Below the pieces are notes generated by a model, which was not told the DNA's origin, did no database searches, and worked only from the letters and a program-made list of their open reading frames with translations. Below, piece after piece: positions 4,402 to 37,722 of a stretch of DNA of 64,000 nucleotides (its first letter is position 1; each line of letters opens with the position of its first letter). The stretch comes from Turritopsis dohrnii. Taxonomy: Eukaryota > Cnidaria > Hydrozoa > Anthoathecata > Oceaniidae. A program made the translations under genes and the position numbers. The stretch is taken from contig BQMF02000434.1 in the NCBI GenBank assembly GCA_027922465.2, forward strand, positions 124,001-188,000. The letters run 5' to 3'.

Positions 4402-4560
4402 CTAGCCGCCCAGGCGGCGTCGCTCGCCACCAATGTTCAGTATGCGTTATGTCGCAGAATTTAACTCGTGTAAAAGTTTCTTACAGGCATTAATTTTTTA
4501 AGTCATTTATTACATTCAGAAAATTTAAGGCAGAAAAAAATAGCAATATGGCTCAGAATA
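4402..4560 (-). mobile_element. 3' part of a minus-strand long Helitron-like copy (left fragment)
   Basis: The reverse complement matches the 3' part of the long units and ends with hairpin GCCGCC-TGG-GCGGC running into CTAG, followed on that strand by T. It stops at 4560 exactly where the plus-strand array begins. The other fragment of the same copy is 35810-37722: placing 4560 next to 35810 recreates the sequence found uninterrupted in other long units, allowing for a few substitutions. This is therefore one older copy split by the array. Confidence 0.8.
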
Positions 4561-6803
4561 TCTATCTATATATACTAATTCGCGTGCGTGTGCAACACAT
4601 TTAACTTAGAGAGTGTTTTGTTTTTGTTTTTTAATGGTCAAAATCTTCTTAATCGTGGTCATATAGCGGCAGTTCGACCACGCAAGACACATTCACATTC
4701 CGCAATTAGTATATGCTCCTCCGTTTTGTTATTTTTGGTTTGCGCAGTGGAAATCAGCCGAAAAACGTCTTTGTAGGAGTGCGAGCAATGCAATCTTCTT
4801 CGTTCGAAATTTGTCAACGATCATTTCGTGAGCAAGAAACTTCGCGAAGAAGACGTGTTTCTTTTTGTATACGAATATTTTAATTTAAATTTGATTGTTT
4901 TAGGCAGCAAATCGACGAAAGAACTGACGAAGAAACACAGGTTTGTATGCACGAAGGTATTGTTATTATTATAAAACGTTTTATTATCGGGTAGCACGTG
5001 TAAGTGAGTTAGTTGTTTGTTTACAATGAAAAATCATATTTAGATATACAGAAGAAGTGCAGTGAAGTTTTTAAAAATTAGCTGCAGAAAGATCGAACGA
5101 ACAAAAGGTATTATTATAAAATTTTTGATTAATAAAAGAACAAGTTAGGTACATGTATTTGTATTTAAATGTATTTAAATGTTTGTTTACGTTTTAGTTA
5201 TCAAATATCGCTATACAAAAGAAAGTGTAGTGAAGAAATGCAGAACAAAATGATGTTTTTTTACACAGTAAGGAATGGTTTTAATTTAGTTTTGAAAGAT
5301 TAAATACTATAGCTTTGAATAGATATCTTATTATATGAGTTCTTTCGTTTAGTCGAATCGAAGACGAGAGTAATTTGTTTTGGTAACGCGCGCTATTATT
5401 ATTTTTATAGTTAGCAAAGAAGATTTGATTTGATTTATTTATTTACAGATCAATTAAAAATGGTCCCACAGCTATGACTGTTTTCCTTTCTCATGGCTGT
5501 GGAAGTAGGGAACGTGTTATGCTGTCAAATTGTATCTATTGACGATGTTTGATGCTTTGTCTGCATGCCTTTCTGCCAGCCATTTATGCCTTTTGTTTTG
5601 GTTTGTTTAAATATGGTTGCAGTAGTAGTAAGTATTGTAGCTGTTCTTTACTGAAATCTTTTTCTTTTAGGTCAGAAAAGAAAAATTGTGGCTATTTATA
5701 AACGAAATTTATAAATGTATAAATGAAACACATGGTATGTTGAGAAGGTTATTAAAGAGAAGAATGGATTATGTATTTCATTGCGATTGTACTACAAAAA
5801 AGAAGCATTGCTGGGGTATATTTTTCTTCAGTTTATATTTGTTTACGGCATTCATTATTTTGTGTTATGTTAATTGCTACATACATACTTGCTAGGTATA
5901 TAAGTTTAGCATTATGTTTTTATTTGTTGCTTTTAATATCTTCTGGGTATTCAATTATGGTTTTGGTGAAAGTAGGGCATTTTGTTGTTTCAATTATTTT
6001 TATTAATTTGATGTTTGGTTGTGTATGCCAGGTAAAAGTCTTTATTCTGTTCAGCTCCAGTGTTGAGTGAACCGGTATTGACTCACAGTATCGGTTGACT
6101 TTATAGACCAAATTTTGTTTTTAATTGTTATCTTTAGGATAAATGCGTACTTGAATTTTCTTTTTGTTTTTTCTTTCTTTTTGTTTTATTTTTTATTTCA
6201 ATATTGTTATAGCATGATTAGGTTTTCGGTATTACAATTCAAGTATTAATTTTTTAGGTAATAATAAAAAAAGCATAAAGAAATGAAACTCATGGTTTTA
6301 ATCATGACGTTGATGGTTTTGGGAAGAACAGACTACATATCATTTCAAAAATTCATTAATGGTTGCAGTCGAGTAATAACTTTGGAACAAAAGAAAAAGT
6401 TGGAAGGTATCAATTTGTTTTGAATTAACATTTTGTAATGTTTGGTTTCGTATGTCTGGGTAAACAGTTCTGTGTTATATATTGCCATTTTTTTACATTA
6501 AAGTTACTTCTCTTCTGCGTATAAATATATTATTCTGAGCCATGTTGCTATTTGTTTCTGTTTTTAATCTTCTGAATGTAAGAAATGAATTAAAAAATTA
6601 ATGCCTGTAGAAACTTTTACACGAGTTAAATTTTGCAACACAACGCATACTGAACATGGGTGGCGAGCGACGCCGCCTGGGATGTTTTTGAGTTGCGATT
6701 CTATGATTTATTTTTTTGTCACGGGGTACGTACACGGGAATGGTGGATTTGACCTAATGTTTTCAAAGTTAAGTTCGGTAAAAAGTTTTTACCCGTGATA
6801 CTA
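4561..6803 (+). mobile_element. Array unit 1 (long)
   Basis: 2243 bp. The 5' end resembles the short-unit type with AACACATTTAACTTAGAGAG; the 3' end has the GGTAAAAAGTTTTTACC hairpin, then GATACTA (final G lost). The interior is an AT-rich series of short exon-like blocks separated by TTTTAG and GTA motifs. It is the closest relative of unit 20 and serves as the empty-site reference for the LINE and MITE insertions there. Confidence 0.75.
6283..6423 (+). other. Candidate captured exon encoding a signal-peptide-like 46-residue ORF (unit 1)
   Basis: Just after a TTTTTTAG acceptor-like motif an ATG opens a 46-codon frame starting M-K-L-M-V-L-I-M-T-L-M-V-L-G-R-T-D, a hydrophobic N-terminus like a secretion signal. 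A GTATCAAT donor-like motif lies near its end, after K-K-L-E-G. The block recurs in every long unit but remains open only in unit 1, unit 2 and, slightly shorter, unit 20. No homologue is recognised; coding status is uncertain. Confidence 0.3.
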
Positions 6804-8932
6804 TCTTATTATACTAATTCGCGATTGTGTGTCACACTTTTATTTTAGAGAGTGACATATTTGTTTTTTTTTCACGGTCAAATCCTTCTTATTTTTTCCC
6901 TTTTCGTCGTAAAACCACGTAGAGCCGAGAACACTTTTTTTGATTTTCCGCGATTAGTATATGCTCCTCCGTTTTGTTATTTTTGGCTTCCGCAGTGGAA
7001 ATCAGCCGAAAAACGTCTTTGGAGGAGTGCGAGCAATGCAATCTTCTTCGTTCGAAATTTGTCAACGATCATTTCGTGAGCAAGAAACTTCGCGAAGAAG
7101 ACGTGTTTCTTTTTGTATACGAATATTTTAATTTAAATTTGATTGTTTTAGGTAGTTTCTGCGAAAAAACGTATCGTGAAGATTGAACTAACAAGTGTGG
7201 AAGCAAATGGACGAAAGAACTGAAAAAAATTTAAGTTTCGGGATCGTTTTCTTTTCGGGTTTATTAAGTAGAGTACATTATTGTTTACAGTGCAGAATGT
7301 ACAAGAATCTTTTACTTATTTACTAACTTTACTTATTATAATACCTTTCCTTTTTTGTTTCTAGAACTTAAAAACGGATGCCTGCAGAAAGATCTTTACT
7401 CAGGTAAAATGTTTTTGTTTTTTTATCGTTTTCGTTGAGCTACCACTTCGTAGAGATTTAATTAAGAAGTGGACATAAATATACGAAAAACTGATTGTTT
7501 TCTTCGTTAGCATATCAGAAGAGAAAGACGAAAAAGAAAGAAAAACTTTACGGGGCGAATAACTTGGATGTGGAGCATCGTTGTTATTGTTAACAACAGC
7601 ATGCTTAGCGAAGGTGATGTTACTTATTATTATTCTGTATTATTATATTGTTCTGTTATTTACAAAAACAAAAATGGTTCCAGAGTTGTGACCATGAGGC
7701 AAGCGTAAGCTGTTGCTGTTGAAAGGCTCTTTGGCTGTAGCTACATCATACATGATCTTTATAGATTTTATTCATTTAAGCGTATTTTTACTTTTTAAAT
7801 GTGATTATAGTGTCTTCTTCTGCATGGTTTATTCATTTAGATTTGTTCCTTTTTCACAAGAAAGAAAGTAAACAAATAAACGTCATTTAGAAAAGTATCT
7901 TTATATTATGAGTTTGGGAATACTTGGGTATTTAGTTTGATCATGTTCTCCTTCGTCATCCAGCTAATAATTATTCACTGTTGTTTCATGTGTAATGTAT
8001 CTCTGTCTGACTTTCCGACTATTATCAGCATCATAATTTGAATTTGTTTTTGATAATGCTCCCAGTGGATGTATATACCTGTATTTGTTTATGCGACATT
8101 CTAATTCATGGAATTTTTCTTATTTTTTATTTTTTCATGTTAATGCATTATTTTGTGTTATGGTAATCGTTTACGTACTATGCCTGGGTAATTAACTTTG
8201 GCATTATGATTTTATTTGTGACTTCCGGGTAAATTTTTGTTCTTAGTTATTGTTTTTTGGATAAATGCGTACTTGAATTTAATTTTTTTTTTCTTTTTTT
8301 TTGTTGTTGTTTATTTCAATATTCTTATAGCATGATTTAATCATTAGGTTTTCGGTATTACAATTGAAATATTATACTTTTAGGTAATAATAAAAAAAGC
8401 ATAAAGAAATGAAACTCATGGTTTTAATCATGACGTTGATGGTTTTGGGAAGAACAGACTATATATCATTTCAAAAATTCATTAATGGTTGCAGTCCAGT
8501 AGTAACTTTGGAACAAAAGAAAAAGTTGGAAGGTATCAATTTGTTTTGAATTAACATTTTGTAATGTTTGGTTTCGTATGTCTGGGTAAACAGTTCTGTG
8601 TTATATATTGCCATTTTTTTTTACATTAAAGTTACTTTTTTTCTGCGTATAAATATATTATTCTGAGCCATGTTGCTATTTGTTTCTGTTTTTAACCTTC
8701 TGAATGTAAGAAATGAATTAAAAAATTAATGCCTGTAGAAACTTTTACACGAGTTAAATTTCGCAACACAACGCATACTGAACATGGGTGGCGAGCGACG
8801 CCGCCTGGGATGTTTTTGAGTTGCGATTCTATGATTTATTTTTTCGTCGCGGAGTACGTACACGGGAATGGTGGATTTGACCTAATGTTTTCGAAGTTAA
8901 GTTCGGTAAAAAGTTTTTACCCGGGATACTAG
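6804..8932 (+). mobile_element. Array unit 2 (long)
   Basis: 2129 bp. The 5' end carries GTGTGTCACAC (a GTGTG/CACAC hairpin) and the 3' end is a complete hairpin plus CTAG at 8929-8932. Its middle (about 7150-7950) is not shared with the other units. Confidence 0.75.
8409..8549 (+). other. Same candidate exon in unit 2
   Basis: An intact second copy of the 46-codon hydrophobic-start frame, differing from unit 1 by two substitutions in its second half (S-P-V-V for S-R-V-I). Confidence 0.3.
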
Positions 8933-10806
8933 TCTATCTTATTATACTAATTCGCAATTGTGTGTCACACTTTTATTTTAGAGAGTGACATATTTGTTTT
9001 TTTTTTTCACGGTCAAATCCTTCTTATTTTTTCCCTTTTTGTCGTAAAACCACGCAGCGGCGACAGACACTTTTTTTGATTTTCCGCGATTAGTATATGC
9101 TCCTCCGTTTTGTTATTTTTGGTTTGCGCAGTGGAAATCAGCCGAAAAACGTCTTTGGAGGAGTGCGAGCAATGCAATGTTAATCGTTCGAAATTTGTCA
9201 ACGATCATTTCGTGAGCAAGAAACTTCGCGAAGAAGACGTGTTTCTTTTTGTATACGAATATTTTAATTTAAATTTGATTGTTTTAGGCAGCAAATCGAC
9301 GAAAGAACTGACGAAGAAACACAGGTTTGTATGCACGAAGGTATTGTTATTATTATAAAACGTTTTATTATCGGGTAGCACGTGTAAGTGAGTTAGTTGT
9401 TTGTTTACAATGAAAAATCATATTTAGATATACAGAAGAAGTGCAGTGAAGTTTTTAAAAATTAGCTGCAGAAAGATCGAACGAACAAAAGGTATTATTA
9501 TAAAACTTTTATACAGAAGAAGTGCAGTGAAGTTTTGAAAAATTGGCTGTGCAACGATAAGACTTTTATTGTTTAATATTTTAGATTAATAAAAGAACAG
9601 GTTTTTAAATGTTTGTTTACGTTTTAGTTATCAAATATCACTATACAGAAGAAAGTGCAGTGGAGAAATGCAGTTTCATGTTTATTTACACAGTAAGGAA
9701 TGGTTTTAATTTAGTTTTGAAAGATTAATTGATTTAGCTTTGAGTGGATGTCTCAGTTATTCTGTCGTTTAGTATGTGTATATGCTGCTGGATGAAAAGG
9801 AAGCCGAGAGAAATTTGTTTTGGTAACGCGCGCTATTATTACATTAAAAATGGTCCTACAGCTATGGATGTTTTTATTTCTCATGACGCTGTGGAAGTGG
9901 GGAATGTGTTATGCTGTCTGATTGTATCTATTGTATCTAATTTATATCGATGCTTGATGCTTTTGTCTGCCTGCCAAAAAGTACAAAATCTACTGGAAAA
10001 TACAGAAAGTTTAGCAGTTTTTCCAAACGAAGAGAGCAGTTTTATGTATTTCACTTAAAAAAAATGGTAGCGAAAGTGTTTTATAAATACCTATGTATGT
10101 TTGTGCTGGAAAGTAAATAAAGTATTAGTAATTTGTTTACAGGTATGAATATAGAAGTAAAGAGTTTAGAAGTGTTTGAAAATGTCTACAGAGGATGATC
10201 AATGCTGTTTAGTTTACTAACATGTGAATTGGCAGTGAAAGGTATCCCATTTTGTTTGAAGTTCAGCTAAACTTAAAATAGTATAAATCTATTTAGTTAT
10301 AACACAGTTGGTATGCTGGATAAATAAGAATAAAGGGTTGTTTAACTGTTGTGAATTAGCCAGAGGAGATTTTAACTCAGATTAAAAATGTGGTTGTTTT
10401 CAATTTTTTATAAACTCTTTAGATATATAAATTCTGTCATTACGTTTGTGTTTTTAATTATTATTCATAAGGTAGATGTGAATGGATTATGTATTTCAGA
10501 AGTTCATTAGTTATTACTGTGCAATGAAATGTTTATGCATTATTTTGTGTCATGGTAATCGTTTACGTACCTGGGTATATATATAAGTTTGGCATTATGA
10601 TTTTATTTGTGACTTTTTATCTTCTGGGTAAATTTTTGTTTTAAGGATAAATGCGTAGTTGAATTTCACTTTTTGTTGTTGTTGTTTATTTAAATATTCT
10701 TATAGCATGATTAGGTTTTCGGTATTACAGTATTACATTTACTATTACGGTGTTTTGTTGTTTTGAGTTATTGTTTTTAGGATAAATGTGTAGTTGAATT
10801 GCATCT

Positions 10807-10841
<35 letters not shown>

Positions 10842-11401
10842 TTCAATATTCTTATAGCATCATTAGGTTTTCGGTATTACAATTCAAGTATTAATTTTTT
10901 AGGTAATAAAAAAAAAAGCATAAAGAAATGAAACTCATGGTTTTAATCATGACGTTGATGGTTTTGGGAAGAACAGACTATATATCATTTAAAAATTCAT
11001 TAATGGTTGCTGTATAATGTAACTTCTGCACGAAAGAAACACAGTTGGAAGGTATCAATTTGTTTTCAATTCACATTTTGTAATGTTATTCAATGTTTGG
11101 TTTCGTATGTCTGGGTAAACAGTTCTGTGTTATATATTGCCATTTTTTATACATTAAAGTTACTTCTCTTCTGCGTATAAATATATTATTCTGAGCCATG
11201 TTGCTATTTGATTCTGTTTTTAATCTTCTGAATGTAATAACAAATTAATGCCTGAAAAGAAACTTTTACACGAGTTAAATTCTGTGACACAACGCATACT
11301 GAACATGGGTGGCGAGTGACGCGTACGTACAACAGGAATGGCAGATTTGACCTAATGTTTTCAAAGTTAAGTTCGGTAAAAAGTTTTTACCCGGGATACT
11401 A
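8933..11401 (+). mobile_element. Array unit 3 (long)
   Basis: About 2.47 kb. Its interior is nearly identical to unit 10, including a chance 104-codon frame at 9744-10058. It contains a GTT microsatellite at about 10807-10838. The 3' junction has lost bases (GGGATACT runs straight into ATACTAATTCGC), so the end is placed to within a few bases. Confidence 0.75.
10807..10838 (+). repeat. (GTT)n microsatellite
   Basis: An uninterrupted trinucleotide run inside unit 3. The equivalent position in unit 10 has only a few repeats, so this is a recent expansion. Confidence 0.9.
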
Positions 11402-13996
11402 TACTAATTCGCTTTGTGTGTCACACTTTTATTTTAGAGAGTGATATATTTGGTTTTTTTTGCACGGTCAAAACCTTCTTATTTTTTCCCTTTTCGTCGT
11501 AAAGCCACGCCAAGGCGAGAACGATTTTTTTGATTTTCTGCGATTAGTATATGCTCCTCCGTTTCGTTATTTTTGGTTTGCGCAGTGGAAATCAGCCGAA
11601 AAACGTCTTTGGAGGAGTGCGAGCAATGCAATGTTAATCGTTCGAAATTTGTCAACGATCATTTCGTGAGCAAGAAACTTCGCGAAGAAGACGTGTTTCT
11701 TTTTGTATACGAATATTTTAATTTAAATTTGATTGTTTTAGGCAGCAAATCGACGAAAGAACTGACGAAGAAACAAAGGTTTGTATGCACGAAGGTATTG
11801 TTATTATTATAAAACGTTTTATTGTTTACAATGAAAAATCATATTTAGATATACAGAAGAAGTGCAGTGAAGTTTTTAAAAATTAGCTGCAGAAAGATCG
11901 AACGAACAAAAGGTATTATTATAAAACTGTTATTTTTGATTAATAGAAGAACAAGTTAGTATTTAAATGTATTTAAATGTTTGTTTACGTTTTAGTTATC
12001 AATTTATTGTTAAACTTTTATTGTTATTGTATTTTAGATTTTATTTTAGATTAATAAAAGAACAGGTATAACCACATGCTTAGGTGAGTTTTTAAACAGA
12101 TGTTGTTTTTTATATATAGGTTTTTTCAGAGGAAAACGAAACGAAGAACGAGATGAAGAAAGTCTACTTTTATTTTACGAGCTGTTTACGTATTTCTTTT
12201 TATAGTTATCAAATAGTTATGGGAGTGCAGCAGTAGAGTAGTGTAGATGAAGTTGAAGTTGTTTAAAAATGGCTGCAGAAAGGATGCTGTTTATTTACAT
12301 TGGTGAAGAAAATGGTTATACTTCTTTTTTCGGAGAGAAATTGTTTGGAAAAGATATAAAGTAATATACGTAAGTACATGAGTCAAACGGATTTAGTAAA
12401 TACAGCGTTAAAAGAGAGTAAAAACAGAGTTAAAACGATCAAATCATTAAGATGCATGTCCCTCGAGCAGTTAATGATTTGTTTTGGTAACGAAGTTGTT
12501 GTTCCTTATTTTATTTAATTCAAAATGGCTTCACAGTTATGAAGTGAAGTTACGAAGTTACGAAGAAAGCATTTTTATGGTATTGGTATTGGTATTGGAA
12601 TTTCAGTAGAAAGCAAAGAGAAAGTGTATCTTTACAATAGGAAAGTATGCTGGAAAGTTAATCGAGTGTTATTAATTTGTTTACAGGTATGAAATACAGA
12701 AAGTAAAAGAGTTTAGAAGTGCTTGATAATGGCTACAGAACATGATCAATATTGTTTACTATCATGATGATGTGAATTGGTATTGAAAGGTAAAGTTAAA
12801 ATAGTATCTATTTAGTTAAACACTGTTAGTATTAGTGGATACATAAAGGATAAGAGGGATGTTTACTGTTGTGTTTTGAATTTTCCAGCAGAGAGGAGCT
12901 TTGAACTGGAAATAAAAAATGGCTCCACGAATGTTTTCATATGTTAAAAATTTTTCAGCTATACTAATTCTGTCATCACGTTTGTGTTTTTAATTATTAT
13001 TTTTAAGGTTAATACATTTTCAAAGTTTCTTTTACTTTGTTTTGTTTTTCTTTAGATTTCGTCATAGCATGATTAGGTTTTTTGTATATGTTTTTTTTAA
13101 TGTTAAAATAGAAATGAAGCACATGATGGGTTATAATGTCGAGAGGGTTACTTAAGATTTACTTACTTAATGACTGTGCAATGAAACTATCTTACAAAAA
13201 ATAAGTGTTGTTGGCTGTATTTTTCTTAAGTTTATATTTTATCGCGTTTATGCATATTTTGTGTTATGGTAATCGTTTACGTACTATGCCTAGGTATATA
13301 ACTTTGAATTTATGATTTTATTTGTGACTTTTTACCTTTTGTGTAAATTTTTCTTCTTAGTTATTGATTTTAAGATAAATACGTACTTGCATTTCCTTTT
13401 TTTTTTTTTTTGTTTCTTTTTTTTTTTCGGTATTATAATTGAAACATTATTCTTTTAGGCAATAATAAAAAAAGCATAAAGAAATGAAACTCATGGTTTT
13501 AATCATGATGTTGATGGTTTTGGGAAGAACTAACTATATCATTTCAAAAATTCATTAATGGTTGCAGTCCAGAAGTAACTTTTGAACAAAAGAAAAAGTT
13601 GGAAGGTATCATTTTTGTAATGTTATTCAATGTTTGGTTTTGTATGTCTTAGTAAACGGTTCTGTGTTATATATTGCATATTTTTACATTAAAGTTACTT
13701 CTCTTCTGCGTATGAATATATATTCTGAGCCATGTTGCTATTTGTTTCTGTTTTAAATTTTCTGAATGTAAGAAATGAATTAAAAAATTAATGCCTGAAA
13801 AGAAACTTTTGCAAGAGTTAAATTTCACAACACAACGCATACTGAACATGGGTGGCGAGCGACGCCGCCTGGGATGTTTTTGAGTTGCGATTCTATGATT
13901 TATTTTTTCGTCACGGGGCACGTACACGGGAATGGTGGATTTGACCTAATGTTTTCGAAGTTAAGTTCGGTAAAAAGTTTTTACCCGGGATACTAG
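11402..13996 (+). mobile_element. Array unit 4 (long)
   Basis: About 2.6 kb, the same subfamily as unit 15. It ends in GGTAAAAAGTTTTTACC, then CTAG at 13993-13996. Confidence 0.75.
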
Positions 13997-14559
13997 TCTA
14001 TATAATAATCCGCGATTGTGTGTCACACTTTTATTTTAGAGAGTGATATATTTACTTTTAATTTACGGTCATCGTCCTCTTATGTGCGCGTAAAACCACG
14101 TAGAGGTGAGAGACACTTTTTTCACGATCATTCCAAAAGCACGTGGCATCATTTGACGTCAGTTTTTTATGATCACGGGGAATCATTGCATTGCATCCCC
14201 AATCGAACGCGACGTTTTTGGGGAAATATCTCAAGAACCAATAGGAATAACTGACGTTTTTTGGGGTCAGCGATACGGGTGATGGGGTGACGCATCATTT
14301 GGGCCTAAATTTTATTTGGTACTGCGGATATGACGTCATCGAAATCTTTGATCAGCGATATCTCTCTAACGGTTGGTCGTAGCGAAACGATCCCATACAT
14401 TTTTTTGATCAGTTTTTCGAGCTCTACAACATGGTTACATTTTCGGTTTCCAATTCCTAAATTGAAATTTCCATCATGGGGATCGTTCACGGGAAAGGCG
14501 ATTTTGACCCATCCTTTTCGAAATTAAGTTCGGTAAAAAGTTTTTTCCCGGGATACTAG
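13997..14559 (+). mobile_element. Array unit 5 (short)
   Basis: 563 bp, typical short unit. It has TGTGTCACAC near the 5' end, an internal CACGTG, a TGACGTCA, and the GGTAAAAAG-type 3' hairpin with CTAG. It shares about 0.1 kb at each end with the long units but has a different interior. Confidence 0.8.
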
Positions 14560-15120
14560 TATATACTAATTCGCAATTGTGTGTCACACTTTTATTTTAG
14601 AGAGTGACATATTTAGTTTCAATTTACGGTCATCGTCTTCTTATGTGCGCGTAAAGCCACGTAGATAAGAGAGACACTTTTTTCACGATCATTCCAAAAG
14701 CACGTGGCATCATTTGACGTCAGTTTTTTATGATCACGGGGAATCATTGCATTGCATCCCCAATCGAACGCGACGTTTTTGGGGAAATATCTCAAGAACC
14801 AATAGGGATAACTGACGTTTCTTGGGGTCAGCGATACGGGTGATGTGGTGACGCGTCATTTGGGCCTAAATTTAATTTGGTACTGCGGATATGACGTCAT
14901 CGAAATCTTTGATCAGTGATATCTCCGCAACGGTTGGTCGTAGCGAAACGATCCCATACACTTTTTTGTTCAGCATTTCGAGCTCCACAACATGGGTACA
15001 CTTTTGAGTTGCGATTCTATGATTTATTTTTTCGTCACGGGGTACGTACACGGGAATGATTGATTTGACCTAAGGTTTTCGAAGTTAAGTTCGGTGAAAA
15101 GTTTTTACCCGGGATACTAG
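14560..15120 (+). mobile_element. Array unit 6 (short)
   Basis: 561 bp. The 5' TC is missing (starts TATATACTAATTCGC). The last ~110 bp are of the long-unit type, showing that ends are exchanged between long and short units. Confidence 0.75.
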
Positions 15121-15401
15121 TCTTATTATACTAATCCTCGTGTGTGCATACCACTTTTAATGTAGTGAGTGTTTGTTTTTTTGTTTTTTAATGGTCAAAA
15201 TCTGATCAAATTGATCGACGATATCTCTGCAACAGTTGATCGTAGCGAAACGATCCCATACACTTTTTTGATCAGCTTTTCGAGCTCTACAACATGGGAG
15301 CACTTTCCAGTCACGATTTTGTGATTTAACTTTTGGTCGCCTATTTTCGACACATCCTTTTCGAAATTAAAGCCGTAAAAAACTTTTACGCGAGATACTA
15401 G
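15121..15401 (+). mobile_element. Array unit 7 (short, internally deleted)
   Basis: 281 bp, about half the usual short unit. The part with CACGTG and TGACGTCA is gone but both ends are kept: TC start, CGTAAAA-AAC-TTTTACG hairpin and CTAG at 15398-15401. Confidence 0.75.
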
Positions 15402-20684: not shown

Positions 20685-20828
20685 TCTTATTATACTAATT
20701 CGCTTTGTGCATCCCACTTTTATTTTAGAGAGTGATATATTTGTTTAATTTTTACGGTCATCGTCCTCTTATGTGCGCGTAAAACCACGTAGAGGCGAGA
20801 GACACTTTTTTCACGATCATTCCAAAAG

Positions 20829-25587: not shown

Positions 25588-27373
25588 TCTACTTATACTA
25601 ATCTGCGTGCGTGTGTAACACATTTAACTTAGTGAGTGTTGTGTTTTTGTTTTTTTAATGGTCAAAATCTTCTTAATCATGGTCATATAGCGGCAGTACG
25701 ACCATTGGAGAAAATATTCCACTGCAATCCAACGATCATTTGTTTTGACACGTGATCACCGTTTCGCCGTTTTTATTGGTTGTCGAAATCGGACAAACTA
25801 TACCGACGATGTTCGTTGAGATGAAATCCATTTTCATTAATCGTTTGACGAACGAACAGGTCTTTACGAAGGTATTATTATAAAACGTTTATTGCTTAAC
25901 TTTTTGCTTTTCTTTATTTGTTTTTCTTTTCTAGATTAATAAAAGAACGTAAGTAAATGTATAATGTTTATTATGTATGTATTATATAAAATCATACTGA
26001 AATGGTTTTTATGTGGAAAACGAATAACAAATAACGAGTATACATCCAGCACATGTTTCAACGTTTTATTTACTTTGTTTTAGATTAATAAAATAACAGG
26101 TAACCAATGTGTATGTATTTAAATGTTTGTTTACGTTTTACTTTACAGAAGAAAGTGCAGTGAAGAAATGCAGAAAAAAATGATGTTTCTTTACACAGTA
26201 ACGAAAGGTTTTCATTTTAATTTAGTTTTGAAAGATTAATTAATTGAGTTTTGAATTATGAATAATGAGTTATTCTATCATTTAGTATGTATCTTCGCTG
26301 GATGAACACTGGATGCTGGATGAAAAGGAACGCGGAACGAACGAAATTTGTTTTGGTAACGCGCACTGTAATTTATTTATTTACAAATCAATTAAAAATG
26401 GTTCTCATGGCTGTGGAAATGGGGGAACGTCTGATGCTGTCTCATTTCACCTAAACATGCCTGCCTTTTATTAGATTTTCTATACAATTTAAGATGCTTG
26501 ATACTTTGTCTATCTGGCTGTGTTCCAGCCAACTTTTGTTTTTGTTTGCTTCAATATGGTTGCAATGAATGTGATTATTTTAGCTGTTCTTCTTCCTTTT
26601 ATTACATCAGAAAAGAAAAAGTGTATATAACCATTAAAGAAATGAAGCATAAACCATATGCTATGAATAAATTATGAATTATGTCCTACAAAAAAGAAGC
26701 ATTATTGGATGGATTTTTTTCAGTCTACATTTTATCAAATTTATGCATTATTTTGTGTTATGGTATATGATTGTTTACGAACTATGCCTGGGTGTATAAA
26801 GTTTGGCACTAATAATCTTCTGGGTAAATTGTGTTTTTAGTTATTGTATTTAGAATAAATGCGTACTTGAATTTCCTTTTTGTTTTTTGTTTCTTTTTGG
26901 TTTTTTTTATTTTCGGTATTACAATTGAAATATTATTCTTTTAGGCAATAATAAAAAAGCATAAAGAAATGAAACTCATGGTATTAATCATGATGTTGAT
27001 GGTTTTGGGAAGAACAGACTATATATCATTCAAAATTCATTAATGATTGCAGTCCAGTAGTAACTTTGGAACAAAAGCAAAAGTTGGAAGGTATCAATTT
27101 GTTTTGAATTAAGATTTTTGTAATGTTATTACTTGTTTGGTTTTATATGTCTGGGTAAACAGTTCTGTGTTATATATTGCCATTTTTTACATTAAAGTTA
27201 CTTCTCTTCTGCGTATAAATGTATATTCTGAGACGTATTGCTGTTTGTTTTTGTTTTAAATCTTCTGAATGTTAGAAATGAATTAAAAAATTAAAAAATC
27301 TTTTACACAAGTTAAATTCTGCGACACAATGCAAGCTGAACATGGGTGGCGAGCGACGCCGCCTTGGCGGCTA
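25588..27373 (+). mobile_element. Array unit 19 (long, different 3' end)
   Basis: 1786 bp. It ends in hairpin GCCGCC-TTG-GCGGC then TA, like the minus-strand copies at 4402 and 40219, rather than the GTAAAAAG hairpin of its neighbours. About 300 bp near 25690-25990 is not seen in the other units. Confidence 0.7.
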
Positions 27374-28841
27374 TCTTATTATAATAATCCGCGCTGTGTG
27401 TCACACTTTTATTTTAGAGAGTGATATATTTGGTTTTTTTCTCACGGTCAAATCCTTCTTATTTTTTCCCTTTTCGTCGTAAAGCCACGTAGAAGCGAGA
27501 GCGTTTTTTTTGATTTTCCGCGATTAGTATATGCTCCTCTGTTTTGTTATTTTTGGTTTGCGCAGCGGAAATCAGCCGAAAAACGTCTTTGGAGGAGTGT
27601 GAGCAATGCAATCTTCTTCGTTCGAAATTTGTCAACGATCATTTCGTGAGCAAGAAACTTCGCGAAAAAGACGTGTTTCTTTTTTTTAATTTAAATTTGA
27701 TTGTTTTAGGCAGCAAATCGACGAAAAAACTGACGAAGAAACACAGGTTTGTATGCACGAAGGTATTATTATTATTACAAAACGTTTTATTATCGTGTTT
27801 ATTGCTAAACTTTTGCTCTTATTAATAAAAGAACACAGGTAACACGTGTAAGTGAGTTAGTTGTTTGTTTACAATGAAAAATCATATTTAGATATACAGA
27901 AGAAGTGCAGTGAAGTTTTTAAAAATTAGCTGCAGAAAGATCGAACGAACAAAAGGTATTATTATAAAAGTTTTATTTTTGATTAATAAAAGAACAAGTT
28001 AGGTATATGTATTTGTATTTAAATGTATTTAAATGTTTGTTTACGTTTTAGTTATCAAATATCGCTATACAGAAGAAAGTGTAGTGAAGAAATGCAGAAC
28101 AAAATGATGTTTATTTACACAGTAAGAAATGGTTTTAATTTAGTTTTGAAAGATTAAATACTATAGCTTTGAATAGATATCTTATTATATGAGTTCTTTC
28201 GTTTAGTTTATATGCTACTGGATGAAAAACGAAGACGAGAGTAATTTGTTTTGGTAACGCGCGCTATTATTATTTTTATAGTTAGCAAAGAAGATTTGAT
28301 TTGATTTATTTATTTACAGATCAATTAAAAATGGTCCCACAGCTATGACTGTTTTCCTTTCTCATGGCTGTGGAAGTAGGAAACGTGTTATGCTGTCAAA
28401 TTGTATCTGTTGACGATGTTTGATGCTTTGTCTGCATGCCTTTCTGCCAGCCATTTATGCCTTTTGTTTTGGTTTGTTTAAATATGGTTGCAGTAGTAGT
28501 AAGTATTGTAGCTGTTCTTTAATGAAATCTTTTTCTTTTAGGTCAGAAAAGAAAAAGTGTAGCTATTTATAAATGAAATTATAAATGAAGTAATGATGAC
28601 GGCTGTGCGTACGGACGTATTTTTGTTGCTTAAACTTGTTGTTTTACTTTATGGAATATTTTATGTTAAGAAAAGTACTTTTTATCAAGCTGATTCACTT
28701 GCTCTTACTTCTGCTGACATACATCTGAACTCAACTCAACCACAACATAGAGATTCGTTTTATTTTGCCTCACTGTGGATTTATTACCAAGATGGTTATA
28801 CTGTACCAAAGAGAAATTTTTCATTGATTTTTATGATACAG

Positions 28842-28877
28842 CTTATTTGTGGAGATATAGAAATGAATCCTGGCCCA
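28842..28877 (+). other. 2A-like ribosome-skipping motif
   Basis: Codons 84-95 of the LINE ORF encode L-I-C-G-D-I-E-M-N-P-G-P, an exact fit to the D-(V/I)-E-x-N-P-G-P consensus. Skipping would fall between Gly94 and Pro95 and release a hydrophobic-leader peptide from the endonuclease. 2A-like motifs at LINE N-termini are known from other invertebrates. Confidence 0.85.
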
Positions 28878-29475
28878 ATTGGAAAAGGAAGCATTTTTCA
28901 ACGATTGTCAAATTTTACTAGGCAAAAAGGATTTTTCATTTTTCATCAAAACGTAAACGGGCTTATTAAAAACTTAAACAAACTGGAAATTTTGTTCTCT
29001 GATACAAAGAAAGACATTCATTTTTTCGGAATTTCTGAGACACATCTAAATGATACGGTTCATGACAGTGAGGTTATGCTTGACGGGTATACGTTTGAAC
29101 TAAAAGATAGGAAAACTGGTCGAGGTGGCGGTGTTGGTTGCTACATTCGAAATGATGTTGAATATATGAGGAGAAAAGATTTAGAACCAGATGGAATCGA
29201 GTCAATTTGCATTGAAATTCCTGTAAAATGATCAGCACCATTCTTAATATTTGTCATGTATCGACCCCCGGATTCTTCCGTTCACAAGTCTGACAACTTT
29301 TTAACAAAATTTGACATAATGTTGAAAGACTCAACTGCAAACGGCTTTGAGATAATTGTCTCTGGGGATTTAAACTGTGATTACAACAAAAAGAATGATC
29401 ATGTAGATATTAAATCATTGATAAAATTGAATGGACTGAAACAAGTTATAAAATCGGCAACTCGCACAACAAGTA

Positions 29476-30092
29476 CAGTGTGTATCAAAATGTCTTATCC
29501 ACCAACTTTCAAGGCGTATATGTCATTACATGTCTGATAAAATATTGTGAATTTTATATCACAAGAAAGAGCTTTTCATGCTCTATCCATAAATATAAAA
29601 TGTTTGCCAAAAATATTTGTTTTTCGAAAAGATATGAAAGAAAAACTCAACGATTTGGTTCATTAAATTCTTAAAAGTCAATTAACTCAATTTACAATAA
29701 ATGACATTTGTAAACACAATAAAAAAAATTAAAAATCATCACACAGTAAAAAATTTTCATTTGAAATTTTTTAGATCAGCTGTTATGGGAAATTAATACG
29801 CAAAGGTATACTTAAAATTTTCTAAAGGTTTCATCAGCACAACAAAAGAAAATTACACCATTAAAAATTCATTAGCATGTCAGTTAATTGACTTTTAAGG
29901 ATTTAATGAACCAAATCGTTGAGTTTTTCTTCAATTTCTTTTCGAAGAACAAATATTTTGGCAAACATTTTATATTAATAGATAGAGCATGAAAAGCTCT
30001 TTCTTGTGATATAAAATTCATAATATTTTATCAGGCATGCAATGAGATATACGCCTTTAAAGTTGGTGGATAAGACATTTTGATACACACTG
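29476..30092. mobile_element. Foldback Tc1/mariner-type MITE inside the LINE
   Basis: 617 bp flanked by TA at 29474-29475 and 30093-30094. The ends are CAGTGTGTATCAAAATG and its complement, and inverted arms of about 215 bp (29476-29690 and 29880-30092) leave a ~190 bp centre. CAGT ends and a TA duplication are Tc1/mariner features. It has no transposase. Without it the endonuclease frame runs on into the T-L-I-D motif, which confirms both boundaries. Confidence 0.9.
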
Positions 30093-33000
30093 TACATCAA
30101 AAACTTTAATTGATATAATTGCTACAAATAAAGAGAAAAATATCAAGGATCATATTGTTAACGCTTCATCTATTTCTGGTCACGATACCGTAGGAATTGT
30201 TCGAAAGCAAAATCATGTTAAATTCAAACCAAAAACAATAAAGACACGTGACTTTTAAAATTATAATCCTGATACGTTTCGTGAGGAATTAGCTACTAGT
30301 AATTGGCAGCCAATTTATGAGTCCGCAAATATTCAATCGGCTTGGGATAAATTTAAAAAGATTTTTACCAATGCAGTTAACAACAACGCACCTATGATTG
30401 AAAAAACTGTTCGTGGGAGAGACTGTGCCTGGTTAACGAACCCTATTCGTAAAATCATGAGAGACCGAAATCACGCTCTCGCAAAAGCTAGAAAATCAAA
30501 TAAAGACTCTGACTGGTTGTCTTACAGACAACTAAGGAACAAAACAAACATAGCAATACGCAAAAGCAAATCTAACCACTGGAAAGAACAAGTAAAACAA
30601 AATATTGATCGTCCAAAAAAATTTTGGAATAATATTAAGAAACTGTTTCCAGTTAAAGAGGTTAACTCTCACACTAACATTGTTTTTAAGGAGGGTGCCT
30701 CAAAAACTACCGAAAGGAAAACAATAGCTAACAATTTTTGCAATTTTTTTACCAATATTGGTAAAAAGCTACAACAGAGTATCACACGTCTTTCAAACAC
30801 CTTTCATTGAAGATACCATCACCAATCTGGCGTTAGATCACAGTTTTCCTTCAAGCCAGTAACTCAATCAAACGTGCTAAAAACACTTAAGAAACTCAAA
30901 CGGTCAACCGCGGCAGGCTATGACAATATTCCGACTTCTCTCGTCAAAGACAGTGCTGAAGTGATAACACCACATTTGACTTATCTCATAAATCTATTTA
31001 TCAAAAATGCATCTTTCCCAGAACAAGAAAAAATTGCAAAAGTTACACCTTTGCATAAAGGAGATAGTAAATCCTCGTATGACAATTATAGACCTATATC
31101 AGTTCTTCCAGTTTTCTCAAAAGTCTTTGAGAAGATTGTACACGAGCAACTGTATGAATATCTGGAAGATAACAAGTTATTAACAAATGTGCAGTTTGGT
31201 TTCCGCCGTAACTCATCTACCAACCACGCAGTTACATACTTTACAGACCATATCCGATCTGCTATGGACACAGGCCAATATACTGGCGCAGTTTATGTGG
31301 ACTTAAGAAAAGCATTTGACACTGTAGACCACGGTAAACTTTTAGCAAAAATGAAAATGTTTGGGATAACTGGTAAAGAGTCTGACTGGATTGCTAGCTA
31401 TTTATTTAATAGGAAACAGTTTGTCATTTACGATGGTGTTTCTTCTGAACTCAACACTATTTTATGTGGGGTCCCACAAGGCTCCATTTTGGGGCCACTT
31501 CTCTTCATTATGTTAATGAATGATATAACCTCTGCTGTCCAAAAGTGCAAAGTCATCCTCTACGCTGACGATACTGTTATCTTCACCAGTGCAAAATCTG
31601 TTACAAATATTGAGACACATTTAAATGAAGACTTAGGTAGATTAAGCTCGTGGCTAGATAGTAACAACCTGATAATCAACCTGAAATAGGGCAAAACTGA
31701 ACTTGTATTGTACGGAACTTCCAAAAAACTTGCAAATGTTCCTGAAGTTAAATGCTATATCAGAAACACTCAAATAAATCAAAGTAATACCTACAAATAC
31801 CTTGGAATTGATCTTGATGCTAAGTTGAATCTTGTAGATCACCATAATTCAACTTATAAGCGATTGTCTGGAAGAACGAAACTGCTAAAACGTATCCGTC
31901 ACAATATCTCATCGGATACGGCTGCATTAATTTACACGATGATGATCCGTCCAATTATGTTCTACTGCAACAACTTGTTCCTGAATATTCCTAAACATCA
32001 TGCAAGGAAATATCAGTACATACAAGACCGTGCCAAGTTGATTGTTGATAATAGCAAATCACCAACACGTGGATGACGATCAAAACACTACGTTTTCAGA
32101 GCTGCTCAATTGAAGTTTTCAAAAATCTCCATAACCTTGGTCCAGAGTTGAAAACAGAGTTCACCAAAGTTTCTCACCAATATAACACGAGAGGAAACGA
32201 AAAGAAGTTAAAGTTGCCTGCGGTGAAAGCTGAGTCAGGGCGTAAAATGTTCAAATTCAATGGAGCAAAGATTTATAATATGCTTCCACATTACATTTGT
32301 GACGAAATATCTTTAATAAGATTTAAAAATAACGTTAGAAATTTTCATTTTGAATAGTGTGTCCGTAAGGGTCTTTGCTCTTTTTAATCATTATGCCCTA
32401 TTATTCTACTTTACTCGGTTTACAGTTTTTCACATTTTATACTCAGTTGTTCCTTAACTTTGCTGTAGCATTCTTATTTTATCAAGTTTACTACTTTCAT
32501 GTGCGGTTATTCGTCTTCTTTACTTCTCCCTCGGTTTTAAGCCCTTTAATTTTGCATCATTAACAATATTTTATTAAATTCCTATATATTTTAATTATAT
32601 TTTATATATTTTCAATTATATTTTACCAATTCGCATTATCATTATTACATAGTTTTTTATTCACAGGTCCCCTTGTGATAGCAATGTATATTTTTTACGT
32701 TGGTTAGGGTTAACCTGTATAAATATAGTTTTAATAATAATAATAATATGTATAAATGAAACACATGGTATGTTGAGAAGGTTATTTAAGAAAGAAGCAT
32801 TGCTGGGGTATATTTTTCTTCAGTTTATATTTGTTTACGGCATTCATTATTTTGTGTTATGTTAATTGCTACATACATACTTGCTAGGTATATAAGTTTA
32901 GCGTTATGTTTTTATTTGTTGCTTTTAATATCTTCTGGGTATTCAATTATGGTTTTGGTCAAAGTAGGGCATTTTGTTGTTTCAATTATTTTTATTAATT

Positions 33001-33411
33001 TGATGTTTGGTTGTGTATGCCAGGTAAAAGTCTTTATTCTGTTCAGCTCCAGTGTTGAGTGAACCCGTATTGACTCACAGTATCGGTTGACTTTATAGAC
33101 CAAATTTTGTTTTTAATTGTTATCTTTAGGATAAATGCGTACTTGAGTTTTCTTTCTTTTTGTTTTATTTTTTATTTCAATATTGTTACAGCATGATTAG
33201 GTTTTCGGTATTACAATTCAAGTATTAATTTTTAGGTAATAATAAAAAAAGCATAAAGAAATGAAACTCATGGTTTTAATCATGACGTTGATGGTTTTGG
33301 GAAGAACAGACTATATATCATTTCAAAAATTCATTAATGGTTGCAGTCGAGTAGTAACTTTGGAACAAAAGAAATAGTTGGAAGGTATCAATTTGTTTTG
33401 AATTAACATTT

Positions 33412-33756
33412 CGTCGTCTCAGTTCAAGACAGCCTTAAGTCCATTTTTTCAAAAATTTCTGCATGTCTTTTTTCGAAAAATGGCCTTAAGTCCACCAAAT
33501 TCTTATGGGAAAGTGGTGTTTTTTGCGATTCAAAAAAAAAATAAGGATTTCAGATTTTTGCAAAATCTTAATCCAAAAACAGCCTTAAGTCCATCATTTT
33601 AGCTACAGAAACATACCCATTATTATACTCCTATAATATCAAAAATATGGACTTAAGGCATTATTTTTTCAAAAGTTAGAAACAAATGAAATCTTTAAAG
33701 TCGATTATCTCAAAATGGAAAAAATGGACTTATAGCTGTCTTGAATTGAGACGACG
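33412..33756. mobile_element. 345 bp MITE with an internal repeated 11-mer
   Basis: Flanked by ATTT at 33408-33411 and 33757-33760; units 1 and 2 show the empty site with one ATTT. Terminal inverted repeats begin CGTCGTCTCARTTCAAGACAGC. CCTTAAGTCCA or its complement occurs several times inside. The superfamily is not recognised; a 4-bp duplication excludes Tc1 and hAT. Confidence 0.85.
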
Positions 33757-34130
33757 ATTTTGTAATGTTTGGTTTCGTATGTCTGGGTAAACAGTTCTGT
33801 GTTATATATTGCCATTTTTTTTACATTAAAGTTACTTCTCTTCTGCGTATAAATATATTATTCTGAGCCATGTTGCTATTTGTTTCTGTTTTTAATCTTC
33901 TGAATGTAAGAAATGAATTAAAAAATTAATGCCTGTAGAAACTTTTACACAAGTTAAATTTCGCAACACAACGCATACTGAACATGGGTGGCGAGCGCCG
34001 CCACCTGGGATGTTTTTGAGTTGCGATTCTATGATTTATTTTTTCGTCACGGGTACGTACACGGGAATGGTGGATTTGACCTAGTGCTTTGAAGTTAAGT
34101 TCGGTAAAAAGTTTTTACCCGGGATACTAG

Positions 34131-34694
34131 TCTACTTATACTAATCCGCGTAGTGTGTAACACATTTAACTTAGAGAGTGTTTTGTTTTTGTTTTTTTAA
34201 TGGTCGAAAACTTCTTAATCGTGGTAATTTAGCGGCAGTTCGACCACGCAAGACACATTCACGATTAGTAAAATAGCACGTGGCATTTGACGTCAGATGT
34301 TTTATGATCACGGGGAATCATTGCATTGCATCCCCAATCGAACGCGACGTTTTTGGGGAAATATCTCGAGAACCAATGGGGATAACTGACGTTCTTTAGG
34401 GTTCGCGATACGGGTGATGGAGTAACGCAAAACTTGGGCCTAAATTTAATTTGGTACTGCGGCTATGACATCATCAAAACCTTTGACCGACGATATCTCC
34501 GCAACGGTTGGTCGTAGCAAAACGATCCCATACATTGTTTTACTCAGTTTTTCAAGCTCTACAACATCAGTACACTTTCCAGTCCCGATTCCGTAATTGA
34601 AATTTTCGTCATAGGGTTCTCACACGGGAACGGGGGATTCTTGCACATCCGTTTCGAAATTATAGCCGTAAAAAACTTTTACGCGAGATACTAG
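34131..34694 (+). mobile_element. Array unit 21 (short)
   Basis: 564 bp. The CRE palindrome is mutated to TGACATCA. CGTAAAA-type hairpin and CTAG at 34691-34694. Confidence 0.75.
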
Positions 34695-35262
34695 TCTACT
34701 TATACTAATCCGCGTGTGCGTGCAACACATTTAACTTAGGGAGTGTTTTGTTTTTTGTTTTTTTAATGGTCAAAATCTTCTTAATCGTGGTCATATAGCG
34801 GCAGTTCGACCACGCAAGACACATTCACGATTAGTATAATAGCACGTGGCATTTGACGTCAGATGTTTTATGATCACGGGGAATCATTGCATTGCATCCC
34901 CAATGGAACGCGACGTTTTTGGGGAAATATCTCGAAAACCAATAGGGATAACTGACGTTTTTTAGGTTTAGTGACAGGGCTGATAGGGTGACGCATCATT
35001 TGGGCCTAAATTTAATTTGGTACTGCGGATATGACGTCATTAAAATTTTAAATCCACGATATCTCTGCAACGGTTGATCGTAACGAAACGATCCCATACA
35101 TTTTTTTGCTCCGTTTTTCAAGCTTTACAATATGGGTACATTTTCCAATCCCGATTCCGCAATTGAAATTTTCGTCACGGGCTACGCACACGGGAACGCG
35201 TCGTATTTCTGCAGATTCTTTTCGAAATTAAAGTCGTAAAAAACTTTTACGGGAGATACTAG
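34695..35262 (+). mobile_element. Array unit 22 (short)
   Basis: 568 bp, same subfamily as units 9 and 18 with CTAG at 35259-35262. Confidence 0.75.
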
Positions 35263-35809
35263 TCTTATATATAATAGCGAGTGTGTGTCACACTTTTATT
35301 TTGGAGAGTGATAAATTTTGTTGAATATTACGGTCAAAATCTTCTTAATCGTGGTCAAATTTTTCGTTAGGCCATGCGTTTTTTTACGATTATTATATAG
35401 TAGCAAGTGCCGTGACGTCAGTTTTTTAATCTATCACGGGGAATCATTGCACTGCATCCCCAATCGAATGCGACGTTTTTGGGGAAATAACTCGAGAACC
35501 AATAGGGAAAACTGACGTTTTTTAGGTTCCACGATACGGGTGATGGGGTGACACAACATTTGCACCTAAATTATTTTTGGTACTGCGGCTATGACGTCAT
35601 CAAAATCTTTGATCGAGGATATCTTTTTAACGGTTGGTCATAGCGAAACGATCCCTTACAATTTTTTGATCAGTTTTTCGAGCTCTACAACATGGGTACA
35701 CTTTTAAGTCGCGAATCCGTAATTAAAATTTTCGTCACGGGGGGGACGCGATACTTGACACATCGTTTTCGAAGTTAAAGTTGGTAAAAATTTTTACCCG
35801 GGTTGCTAG
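35263..35809 (+). mobile_element. Array unit 23 (short, last of the array)
   Basis: 547 bp and the most diverged short unit: many substitutions and a weaker hairpin (GGTAAAAATTTTTACC). It ends in CTAG followed by T of the older minus-strand copy. Its divergence fits its being the oldest unit of the array. Confidence 0.75.
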
Positions 35810-37722
35810 TATATCTATATGCAGAAGAGAAGTAACTTTTATGTAAAAATAGCAATAGTACAGAACTGTTTATCCAGACATAATACATAAAGCATAATAA
35901 ATATTACAAAATGTGAATTGAAAACAAATCGATACCTTTTAACTGTGTTTCTTTGGTGCGGAAGTGACATTGGTTAGCAACTATTAATGAATTTTTGAAA
36001 TGATATACAGTCTGTTCTTCCCAAAATCATCAACACCATGATAAGAACCATGAGTTTCATTTCTTTAACGGTTTACGTGCTGTTTTATTATTAAACTTAC
36101 CTAAACAGTATTTCAATTGTATAAAAATGCAGAAAAAGATAATCATGCTATGAAATGGTTGAAATAAAAAACAAAACAAAAAACAAAAAGTAAATTCAAG
36201 TACGCATTTATCCTAAAAATAATTAATTAAAAACACAAATTCAATGACAGAATTTGTAAAGCTTTTGATTGGAAAGTCTATAAAATCAACCAATGCTATA
36301 TAAGTTAATACGGGTTCAACACTCAACACTGGAGCTAAACTACATAAAGACTTTTAACGTGGGATACACAGCCAAACATCAAAATAATAAAAATAATTGA
36401 AACAATGAAATGCCCTACCAAAGTCATAATTTAATACCGAAAAGATAAAAAGTAACAACAGTAAAACATAATGCGAAACTTATATAGTACCCAGACATAG
36501 TACGTAAACAATTACCATAACACAAAATACTGTGTAATCATCACAAAATATAAGAATCCATCCAGCAATGCAATGCTTCTTATTTGTAGTAGCACAGTTA
36601 GTAGTCATATCACATTGTACAGCAATAATTAATGAATTTCTGAAATACATAATCCATTCTTCTCTTAACTATCCCTCACAACATCATAATGTAACCATGT
36701 GCTTCATTTCTTTAATGGTTATACACTTTTTCTTTTCTGACCTCGAAGAAAAAGATTTCAGTGAAGAGCAGGTACAATCCACACTACTGCAACAACCATA
36801 TTGAAGCAAACAAAGGCAAAAGATATAAATGACAGACAGGCAGAGAGACAAAGCACCAAACATCGTCAATAAAATATACAGGGAAATTTAATAAAAAGCA
36901 GACATGGTTGAGATGAGATAAGATAGCATAACACGTTCTCCATTTCCACAGTGATGAGAACCATTTTTAATTGATCTGTAAATAAAATCTTCTTTGCTAA
37001 CTAATGGCGCGCGTTACCAAAACAAATTTTTACTGCGCTCCCCCTCGTCTTCGTTGCACCATAGTCTTTTGACTATGGATGCTCCATCTCCTCTTCGTTT
37101 TCATCCAGCTTCTACATCCTAAACGATTGAATTACTTTAACTCTTACACTCACACATTAATAAGATATCTTTTCAAAACAAACTTAAAATTAAAACCATT
37201 CGTTACCCGTGTAAATAAACATCATTTTTTCTGAAGCCAATTTTAAACATAAACCATTTCACTACACTGCTTTTACATCGTAAACAAACATTTAAATACA
37301 ATGCATAATAAAATACATCAATACAATTAACTCACTTACGCACGTAGCACACCTGTCCTTCTATTAATCTTAAATACAATAAAAGTAAAAGTTTAACAAT
37401 TAACAGTTTTATAATAACAATATTTTCGCATGTATACAAACCTGTGTTTCTTCGTGAAGTTCACAACGAAGAAATGAAAGCCGTTATAAACGAACTAATT
37501 TTTGGAATTTGTCAGCCAATCAAAACTGCGCATTTTATTAGCCAATGAAATCGATCAGCGGCGGGGTTTCCCCATTTACTAATCGTAAAAAAACGCTCTC
37601 GCCTCTGCGTGGTTTTACGACGAAAAGGGAAAAAATAAGAAGGTTTTGACCGTTGAAAAAAAGTAAATATGTCACTCTCTAAAATAAAAGTGTGACACAC
37701 AGCGCGGATTATTATAATAAGA
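35810..37722 (-). mobile_element. Minus-strand long Helitron-like copy (right fragment, 5' end at 37722)
   Basis: Reverse-oriented long unit. On the minus strand it starts TCTTATTATAATAATCCGCG after an A (comp. of 37723) and continues through the usual interior to 35810, where the array interrupts it; the missing end is 4402-4560. It is more diverged than the array units. The signal-peptide-like frame near 36062 keeps the same N-terminal pattern (M-K-L-M-V-L-I-M-V-L-M-I-L) but ends early. Confidence 0.8.

Follow-up and report, generated by a model that had tools for sequence, protein, structure and literature searches.

The subject of this report is a row of Helitron-like transposable elements in the hydrozoan Turritopsis dohrnii. 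The row lies in a window of 64,000 nucleotides (NCBI GenBank assembly GCA_027922465.2, contig BQMF02000434.1, positions 124,001 to 188,000 of the forward strand), and coordinates below are those of the window unless another locus is named. It occupies 4561-35809 (31,249 bp) on the plus strand, where profile searches built from the repeat ends recovered 23 five-prime and 23 three-prime ends in a single orientation. A sequence-only reading of the window had described a 23-unit, head-to-tail array of about 31 kb, and this description was confirmed. The coordinates it gave for the outer junctions at the canonical Helitron target also hold: A|TC at 4560/4561 on the left and CTAG|T at 35809/35810 on the right, the bar marking the border.

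The units are a mix of short and long non-autonomous elements. Fourteen are short units of 544-571 bp, and u07 is a deletion form of 281 bp. The eight long units measure 1.8-2.6 kb, u20 excepted, which reaches 6.8 kb because of later inserts. Apart from two chimeras (u11 and u12) and one outlier (u23), the full short units belong to subfamily A or B. Twenty-two of the three-prime ends belong to two related types, and the 23rd, which closes u19, is of the native long type. Eight open frames in the bodies of the long units gave no Pfam match above the cut-off (one frame gave two weak matches), and no homologue was found for the one frame searched; a captured gene in these bodies was therefore rejected. 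Scans of the window with Rfam (gathering threshold) and for tRNAs returned no matches. The row and the older copy around it are mapped as follows.

4402..4560, minus strand: 3′ part of an older long Helitron; native end with GCGACGCCGCC hairpin, CTAG at 4402; joins 35810-37722
4561..6803, plus strand: u01, long unit; B-type 5′ end, captured A-type 3′ end, ends in CTA; extra TCTA at its start
6804..8932, plus strand: u02, long unit; native 5′ end
8933..11401, plus strand: u03, long unit; native 5′ end; body common to u10
11402..13996, plus strand: u04, long unit; 5′ tip truncated; body common to u15
13997..14559, plus strand: u05, short unit, subfamily A
14560..15120, plus strand: u06, short unit, subfamily A; 5′ tip without TC
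15121..15401, plus strand: u07, short unit with internal deletion, 281 bp
15402..15945, plus strand: u08, short unit, subfamily B
15946..16515, plus strand: u09, short unit, subfamily B; ends in CTAA
16516..18812, plus strand: u10, long unit; B-type 5′ end
18813..19010, no strand: AT-rich filler of about 200 bp; holds an inverted 3′-end fragment, 18836-18896 (minus)
19011..19581, plus strand: u11, short unit, chimera; 5′ half B-like, 3′ half A-like
19582..20125, plus strand: u12, short unit, chimera; subfamily B with a different 5′ tip
20126..20684, plus strand: u13, short unit, subfamily A; without CTAG
20685..21249, plus strand: u14, short unit, subfamily A
21250..23890, plus strand: u15, long unit; B-type 5′ end; body common to u04
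23891..24455, plus strand: u16, short unit, subfamily A; 5′ tip TTAG replacing TC
24456..25019, plus strand: u17, short unit, subfamily B; served as genome query
25020..25587, plus strand: u18, short unit, subfamily B
25588..27373, plus strand: u19, long unit; B-type 5′ end, native 3′ end (GGCGGCTA)
27374..34130, plus strand: u20, long unit; native 5′ end; split by two later inserts
about 28590..32750, plus strand: non-LTR (long terminal repeat) retrotransposon in u20 (RVT_1), about 4.2 kb; flanked on either side by TATAAATGAA; limits judged by eye
33412..33756, no strand: terminal inverted repeat (TIR) element in u20, 345 bp; termini CGTCGTCTCAGTT..., flanked on either side by ATTT; limits judged by eye
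34131..34694, plus strand: u21, short unit, subfamily B
34695..35262, plus strand: u22, short unit, subfamily B
35263..35809, plus strand: u23, short unit, the most divergent; 10% of states private; CTAG directly next to the target T
35810..37722, minus strand: 5′ part of the older long Helitron; A|TC at its 5′ end, 37722

When the flanks 4402-4560 and 35810-37722 are joined, they form one minus-strand long copy of 2,072 bp with an A|TC and a CTAG|T of its own. All eight long units align across the joint, three of them (u04, u15 and u19) free of gaps and five (u01, u02, u03, u10 and u20) with a one-base indel, and positions 4560 and 35810 accordingly abut in these copies. The empty site is precise, with no target duplication and no loss beyond one base of an AT run. 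This alignment upholds the earlier view of a single A|T target inside an older reversed copy with its empty site visible: the first element entered the older, inverted long Helitron between an A and a T and duplicated no target bases.

Ends, junctions and diversity of the units

A 5′ TC is present in 19 of the 23 units, the tip being altered in u04, u06, u11 and u16. The 3′ tips read CTAG in 18 units, CTAA in one and CTA without the last base in three, in agreement with the Helitron CTRR terminus, and the tip is absent from one unit. Nineteen units have a hairpin with a 7-bp stem. Its distance from the end is 11 nt in 17 of them and 10 nt in two that are without the final G. The hairpin noted in the sequence-only reading thus exists, although it stands 11 nt before the end and does not immediately adjoin CTAG. 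The native long family carries a different, GC-rich hairpin, likewise 11 nt from CTAG in a separate Helitron ending at 40219. In seven of the eight long units the native 3′ end is lost and the sequence runs on into an A-type 3′ end.

The outer stem pair is G-C in subfamily A and C-G in subfamily B, a double change present in four of the 12 distinct rows of the alignment used for covariation (21 rows, without u13 and u19; u17 and u23 were placed one base off by MAFFT). The covariation score was reached by 16 of 500 shuffles and the count of double-change pairs (1) by 473 of 500, so that covariation lends modest support to the stem.

The TC and CTRR ends, the hairpin at about 11 nt and the A|T target without duplication support assignment of the elements to the canonical Helitrons (Helitron1 type), as the sequence-only reading had proposed. 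Helentrons (Helitron2) insert at TT, as seen for DINE-1 (PMC2374699); the borders here, in the window and at other loci, are A|T.

The separate Helitron just mentioned spans about 847 bp (40219-41065, minus strand), belongs to another family, begins A|TCTATATATTAATAGCC... and closes with a GC-rich hairpin followed by CTAG|T. Its 5′ type also stands head-to-tail behind other units at three loci elsewhere (L017, L018 and L034). Three small palindrome-like 5′ tips, about 25 nt in (GTGTGTCACAC, TGTGTAACACA and GTGCATACCAC), occur on different bodies. A split 5′ terminus, in which the extra TCTA before u01 and u03 and the missing TC of u06 would be one end opened by nested insertion, was considered and dropped, since the extra TCTA also occurs at L003, L016 and L024, at L016 without a matching remainder. 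A search of viral contigs with two end patterns gave no matches.

The 22 internal junctions comprise 14 of CTAG|TC, two of CTAG|T without C, one of CTAA|TC, three of CTA|T, one of GATA|TC and one filled by about 200 bp. The joints of CTAG directly followed by TC that had been described are therefore exact in 14 cases, the other eight being variant or filled.

Pairwise identity among the 14 full short units is 74-94% (70-77% against the deleted u07), and they are thus not the near-identical monomers of a satellite. Nor does the row show the homogenised monomers, with neighbours most alike, of a classical satellite. In-register block similarity gave no signal (p=0.34), and nearest relatives within the row are not close to one another (mean offset 8.7 units versus 8.0 at random, p=0.69). 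The long bodies of u01/u20, u03/u10 and u04/u15 are about 96-98% alike in matching windows. A higher-order repeat formed by block duplication (11827-15203 versus 21729-25101) was rejected: beyond the u04/u15 body, its short units are not mutual closest relatives. The long units that open a run (u01, u10, u15 and u19) have B-type 5′ ends and u02, u03, u04 and u20 native ones, a pattern expected in one of 70 cases by chance and spotted post hoc. The row has been reworked since its elements arrived, through end exchange among elements, deletions, the retrotransposon and the small TIR element.

One-way rows at other loci

The 435.9-Mb assembly (891 contigs, including the window) was searched with the first 900 bases of u01 and with u17, and the best 40 of 4,527 and of 4,922 candidates, respectively, were scored. 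Among these, the best relatives of the u01 segment lie on other contigs (96 and 95%), as does that of u17 (96%, compared with 93% for u21, its best relative in the row). The u17 search gave 121 matches among its best 40 candidates, many of them same-strand neighbours. Twenty-eight loci were then read. The u01 search supplied seven, each of about 3.9 kb, and the u17 search 20 of its 39 loci outside the window (6.9-9.9 kb); the remaining one was L041.

Of the 20 loci read around close u17 relatives, 18 contain complete units joined head-to-tail in one pair or more. At the other 19 non-window u17 loci scored, same-strand contacts were counted at 15, by hand from a match table in which some matches are partial. 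With native ends included, the 28 loci hold 86 head-to-tail contacts, in 24 of the loci, and two inverted contacts, both due to one unit (L031). A binomial test on 87 of 88 contacts, a hand-entered approximation, gave 6e-25, which is a rough guide because contacts within one locus are not independent. One-way rows are the usual arrangement at most sampled loci of this genome, and the rarity claimed for the array from the window alone is not supported.

Among 73 junctions at other loci, identified with the first profile set, 54 were CTAG|TC, five CTAA|TC, six CTAA|T, four CTA|TC, three CTAG|T and one of another kind. Head-to-tail junctions also lead into the starts of other families, as at L018:3189, where an A-type end is followed by a TCTTCTATATATTAATAGCC start, and at L021:5797 and L019:5528. 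Away from recognized contacts, 29 starts were found, with A before TC in 23, G in three and no TC in three; the G-preceded starts look like unrecognized or damaged junctions. The corresponding 62 three-prime rows comprised 31 with CTAG, each followed by T (31/31), 15 internal CTGG matches and 16 without CTRR. Some of the 23 A|TC starts and 31 CTAG|T ends adjoin further elements and not host DNA.

Matches to Helitron_like_N (PF14214) above the cut-off numbered at least 150 (150 of 1,830 candidates scored), many with open frames near 1,600 amino acids; the genome has many Helitrons that may be active. An autonomous partner was considered at C95, where two long units lie near a RepHel domain, and was rejected as the units look separate from RepHel; no open frame of at least 250 amino acids lies wholly inside the stretch examined there.

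Formation of the rows

Relatedness was compared for 84 short units, namely the 14 of the window and 70 of 89 complete units (chosen by size) from other loci. Although no more than 27 other loci entered the comparison, the nearest sampled relative lay at another locus for 74 of these, in the adjacent unit for five and elsewhere at the same locus for five, which argues that rows have not grown mainly by copying of neighbours. Likewise, when the eight long units were divided into 172 windows of 250 bp, the best match was at another sampled locus for 95 windows and in the row for 22, with 12 ties and 43 windows without a match (39 of them in u20). The class of a short unit's 5′ end agrees with that of its own 3′ end in 67 of 75 units (odds ratio 73.5). 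This test includes the window; unclassified ('?') or native (N) units, 17 of 92, were dropped, as were 26 of 107 contacts on the same ground. Ordered pairs of units do not recur across loci (2 versus 4.3 expected, p=0.88), and moving dimers are accordingly not supported.

These results favour whole-unit insertion beside residents, with recombination on top. The canonical non-autonomous Helitrons of the row would have been brought together by many separate insertions of whole units next to those already present, a reading given a probability of about 0.6. After the first insertion, further elements of several subfamilies would arrive from a dispersed pool, each placed in such a way that the CTAG of one unit abuts the TC of the next. 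The resident 5′ border, A|TC, is itself an A|T, and insertion there should restore A|TC, so that the landing site would renew itself. Since AT is its own reverse complement, insertion at A|T alone sets no orientation. The favoured proposal is that RepHel would nick the A|TC at the 5′ end of a resident and that this nick, as acceptor for the incoming Helitron circle, would fix the direction. Some HUH relaxases join two nick sites (PMC5714925), although these are plasmid enzymes and their likeness to RepHel is an analogy only. That the resident 5′ end is in this manner a preferred, orientation-setting landing site for Helitrons, those of other families included, and that rows fill the genome through it, is put forward tentatively, as a proposal more doubtful than the insertions themselves.

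Several observations weigh against whole-unit insertion or its proposed direction. Recombination is clear (pairwise homoplasy index [PHI] test, p=0.0005 in all four unit sets). The quartet u03/u04/u10/u15 has one topology in its first 200 bp (12 sites versus 1) and solely the other from about 500 bp. Similarity between adjacent units in the window gave p=0.076, and among the 84 short units nearest relatives exceed chance both for adjacent units (5 versus 1.1, p=0.018) and within a locus (10 versus 4.9, p=0.038). The row itself provides the best match for u10 in nine of 17 windows and for u03 in seven of 18, and the 3′ class of one unit correlates weakly with the 5′ class of the next (55 of 81, odds ratio 4.1, p=0.005). 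Some local duplication, conversion or recombination thus occurs. If rows grew at their 5′ ends, the left-hand units should be the younger ones. Among 46 adjacent pairs this held for 27 (sign test p=0.30, Wilcoxon p=0.51), and the age gradient in the window was not significant (Spearman 0.43, p=0.12; 0.29, p=0.34 without u23). A strict left-to-right order of age was therefore abandoned. The inverted unit of L031 and the inverted 3′-end remnant at 18836-18896 indicate that the opposite orientation can arise. No ends of the row type were found within 1.5 kb of RepHel domains at six examined of the at least 150. The loci are the best matches to u17 or u01 and not a random sample, and 'nearest' means nearest among the loci read. 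Finally, eight of the 22 window junctions depart from CTAG|TC; about half of the circles recovered in a Helraiser assay had aberrant junctions (PMC5876387), and such variants are therefore not alien to the mechanism.

Much of this evidence is what would be expected had a few founders been multiplied by unequal crossing-over or other duplication within the array, to which the PHI signal, the excess of adjacent and same-locus relatives, the matches of u10 and u03 within the row and the three closely similar pairs of long bodies all lend weight. Such an origin is nevertheless unlikely for the row as a whole, given that blocks are not similar in register, nearest relatives are not close within the row, dimers do not recur across loci, u17 has its best relative on another contig and 95 of the 129 matched long-unit windows are closer to another sampled locus. 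Recombination of Helitron circles into residents by homology, adding tandem units and swapping ends, would explain direction at no extra cost, and it accords with the single switch point in the 5′ region of the quartet and with the B-type ends of run-opening long units, a pattern noticed afterwards. It is also improbable, because the 5′ class of a unit tracks its own 3′ end far more closely than that of the preceding unit and because some junctions involve families with a different 5′ sequence past the AT-rich tip. A row born once as a rolling-circle concatemer, inserted whole and later diverged by mutation, would account for the uniform orientation and the many exact CTAG|TC joints, and a resemblance between head-to-tail Helitron joints and rolling-circle replication concatemers has been pointed out (PMC5876387). 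The presence of several subfamilies differing in bodies and 3′ hairpins, the dispersal of nearest relatives over other loci and the 23 ends of each kind, as against the arrays credited to Xiong et al. in PMC12628747, where multiple 5′ ends accompany one 3′ end, make this origin highly improbable.

Direction alone could also have come from undirected insertion beside residents followed by loss of unstable inverted neighbours, which overlaps with the preferred whole-unit insertion and is its main rival on this one point. The inverted remnant in the filler and the unit of L031 could be survivors of such loss. A single inverted unit stands against 86 head-to-tail contacts in 28 loci, in data to which no systematic search for remnants was applied, and selective loss is judged a poor candidate. 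An assembly artefact is hardly credible, as the units can be told apart, the borders are exact and many contigs show the same pattern.

Neighbouring features and known tandem Helitrons

The remainder of the window contains further repeats and open frames.

37873..38037: short element with 47-nt inverted ends (CAGTGGCGGATCTAG...) and 71 nt between the arms
38182..39648: open frame of a major facilitator superfamily (MFS) transporter, adjoining the row; two matches, one of them distant with a name beginning 'Feline leukemia virus subgro', like the feline leukemia virus receptor family
48016..48621, 51214..51571 and 60235..60840: tandem repeats in which the palindrome CAACGTTG is frequent; periods 160, 25 to 152 and 101 to 254, respectively
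56059..57192, minus strand: DDE_Tnp_4 transposase
61002..62861, minus strand: reverse-transcriptase open frame of 619 amino acids

Such a genome bears on two unsolved problems of Helitron biology, the choice of targets and the formation of tandem arrays. One-way, largely base-precise rows of distinct two-ended elements allow concatemer formation, crossing-over and targeted insertion to be separated from sequence. The sequence-only reading had expected the array to show how Helitron satellites arise. This holds in part: the units are heterogeneous elements with nearest sampled relatives mostly elsewhere and were not amplified from one founder. The rows would represent a route from transposon to long repeat array without amplification of a single founder.

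The closest functional parallel is Helraiser, derived from the bat element Helibat1, which has the same 5′ TC, 3′ CTAG, palindrome 11 nt before the 3′ end and A|T target as the elements described here (PMC4778049, PMC5876387), and whose circles join CTAG to TC (PMC5876387). Bypass of the 3′ end creates new ends in Helraiser (PMC4778049, PMC5876387), and the same process would yield captured A-type 3′ ends such as those of seven of the eight long units (PMC4778049). In contrast to Helraiser, the present elements are non-autonomous, have other hairpins and, in the sampled copies, stand mostly in one-way rows. Preference of maize Helitrons for insertion near other Helitrons has been ascribed to Yang and Bennetzen 2009 (PMC12477314); landing near Helitrons is seen here as well, and the contacts here are one-directional and, at most junctions, base-precise. 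In the oyster Cg_HINE Helentrons, satellite-like repeats are internal to one element (PMC7492417), whereas whole elements form the repeats here, and a link between rolling-circle elements and tandem repeats is common to both.

Tandem Helitrons have been reported in bats, Drosophila, rice and maize, with three tandem copies in Metarhizium (PMC5148889, PMC5876387). The plant and bat arrays are head-to-tail with a proposed rolling-circle link, as here. Many arrays of the kind ascribed to Xiong et al. 2016, which are satellites of truncated Helitrons, combine several 5′ ends with just one 3′ end (PMC12628747), in contrast to the 23 of each, in mixed subfamilies, found here. The literature consulted, most subscription papers being outside its scope, gave no account of one-way, two-ended, mixed-family Helitron rows as the usual state of a genome. 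The comparison suggests that the row of T. dohrnii extends the tandem Helitron arrays already known, as a two-ended, mixed-family and one-way version of them.

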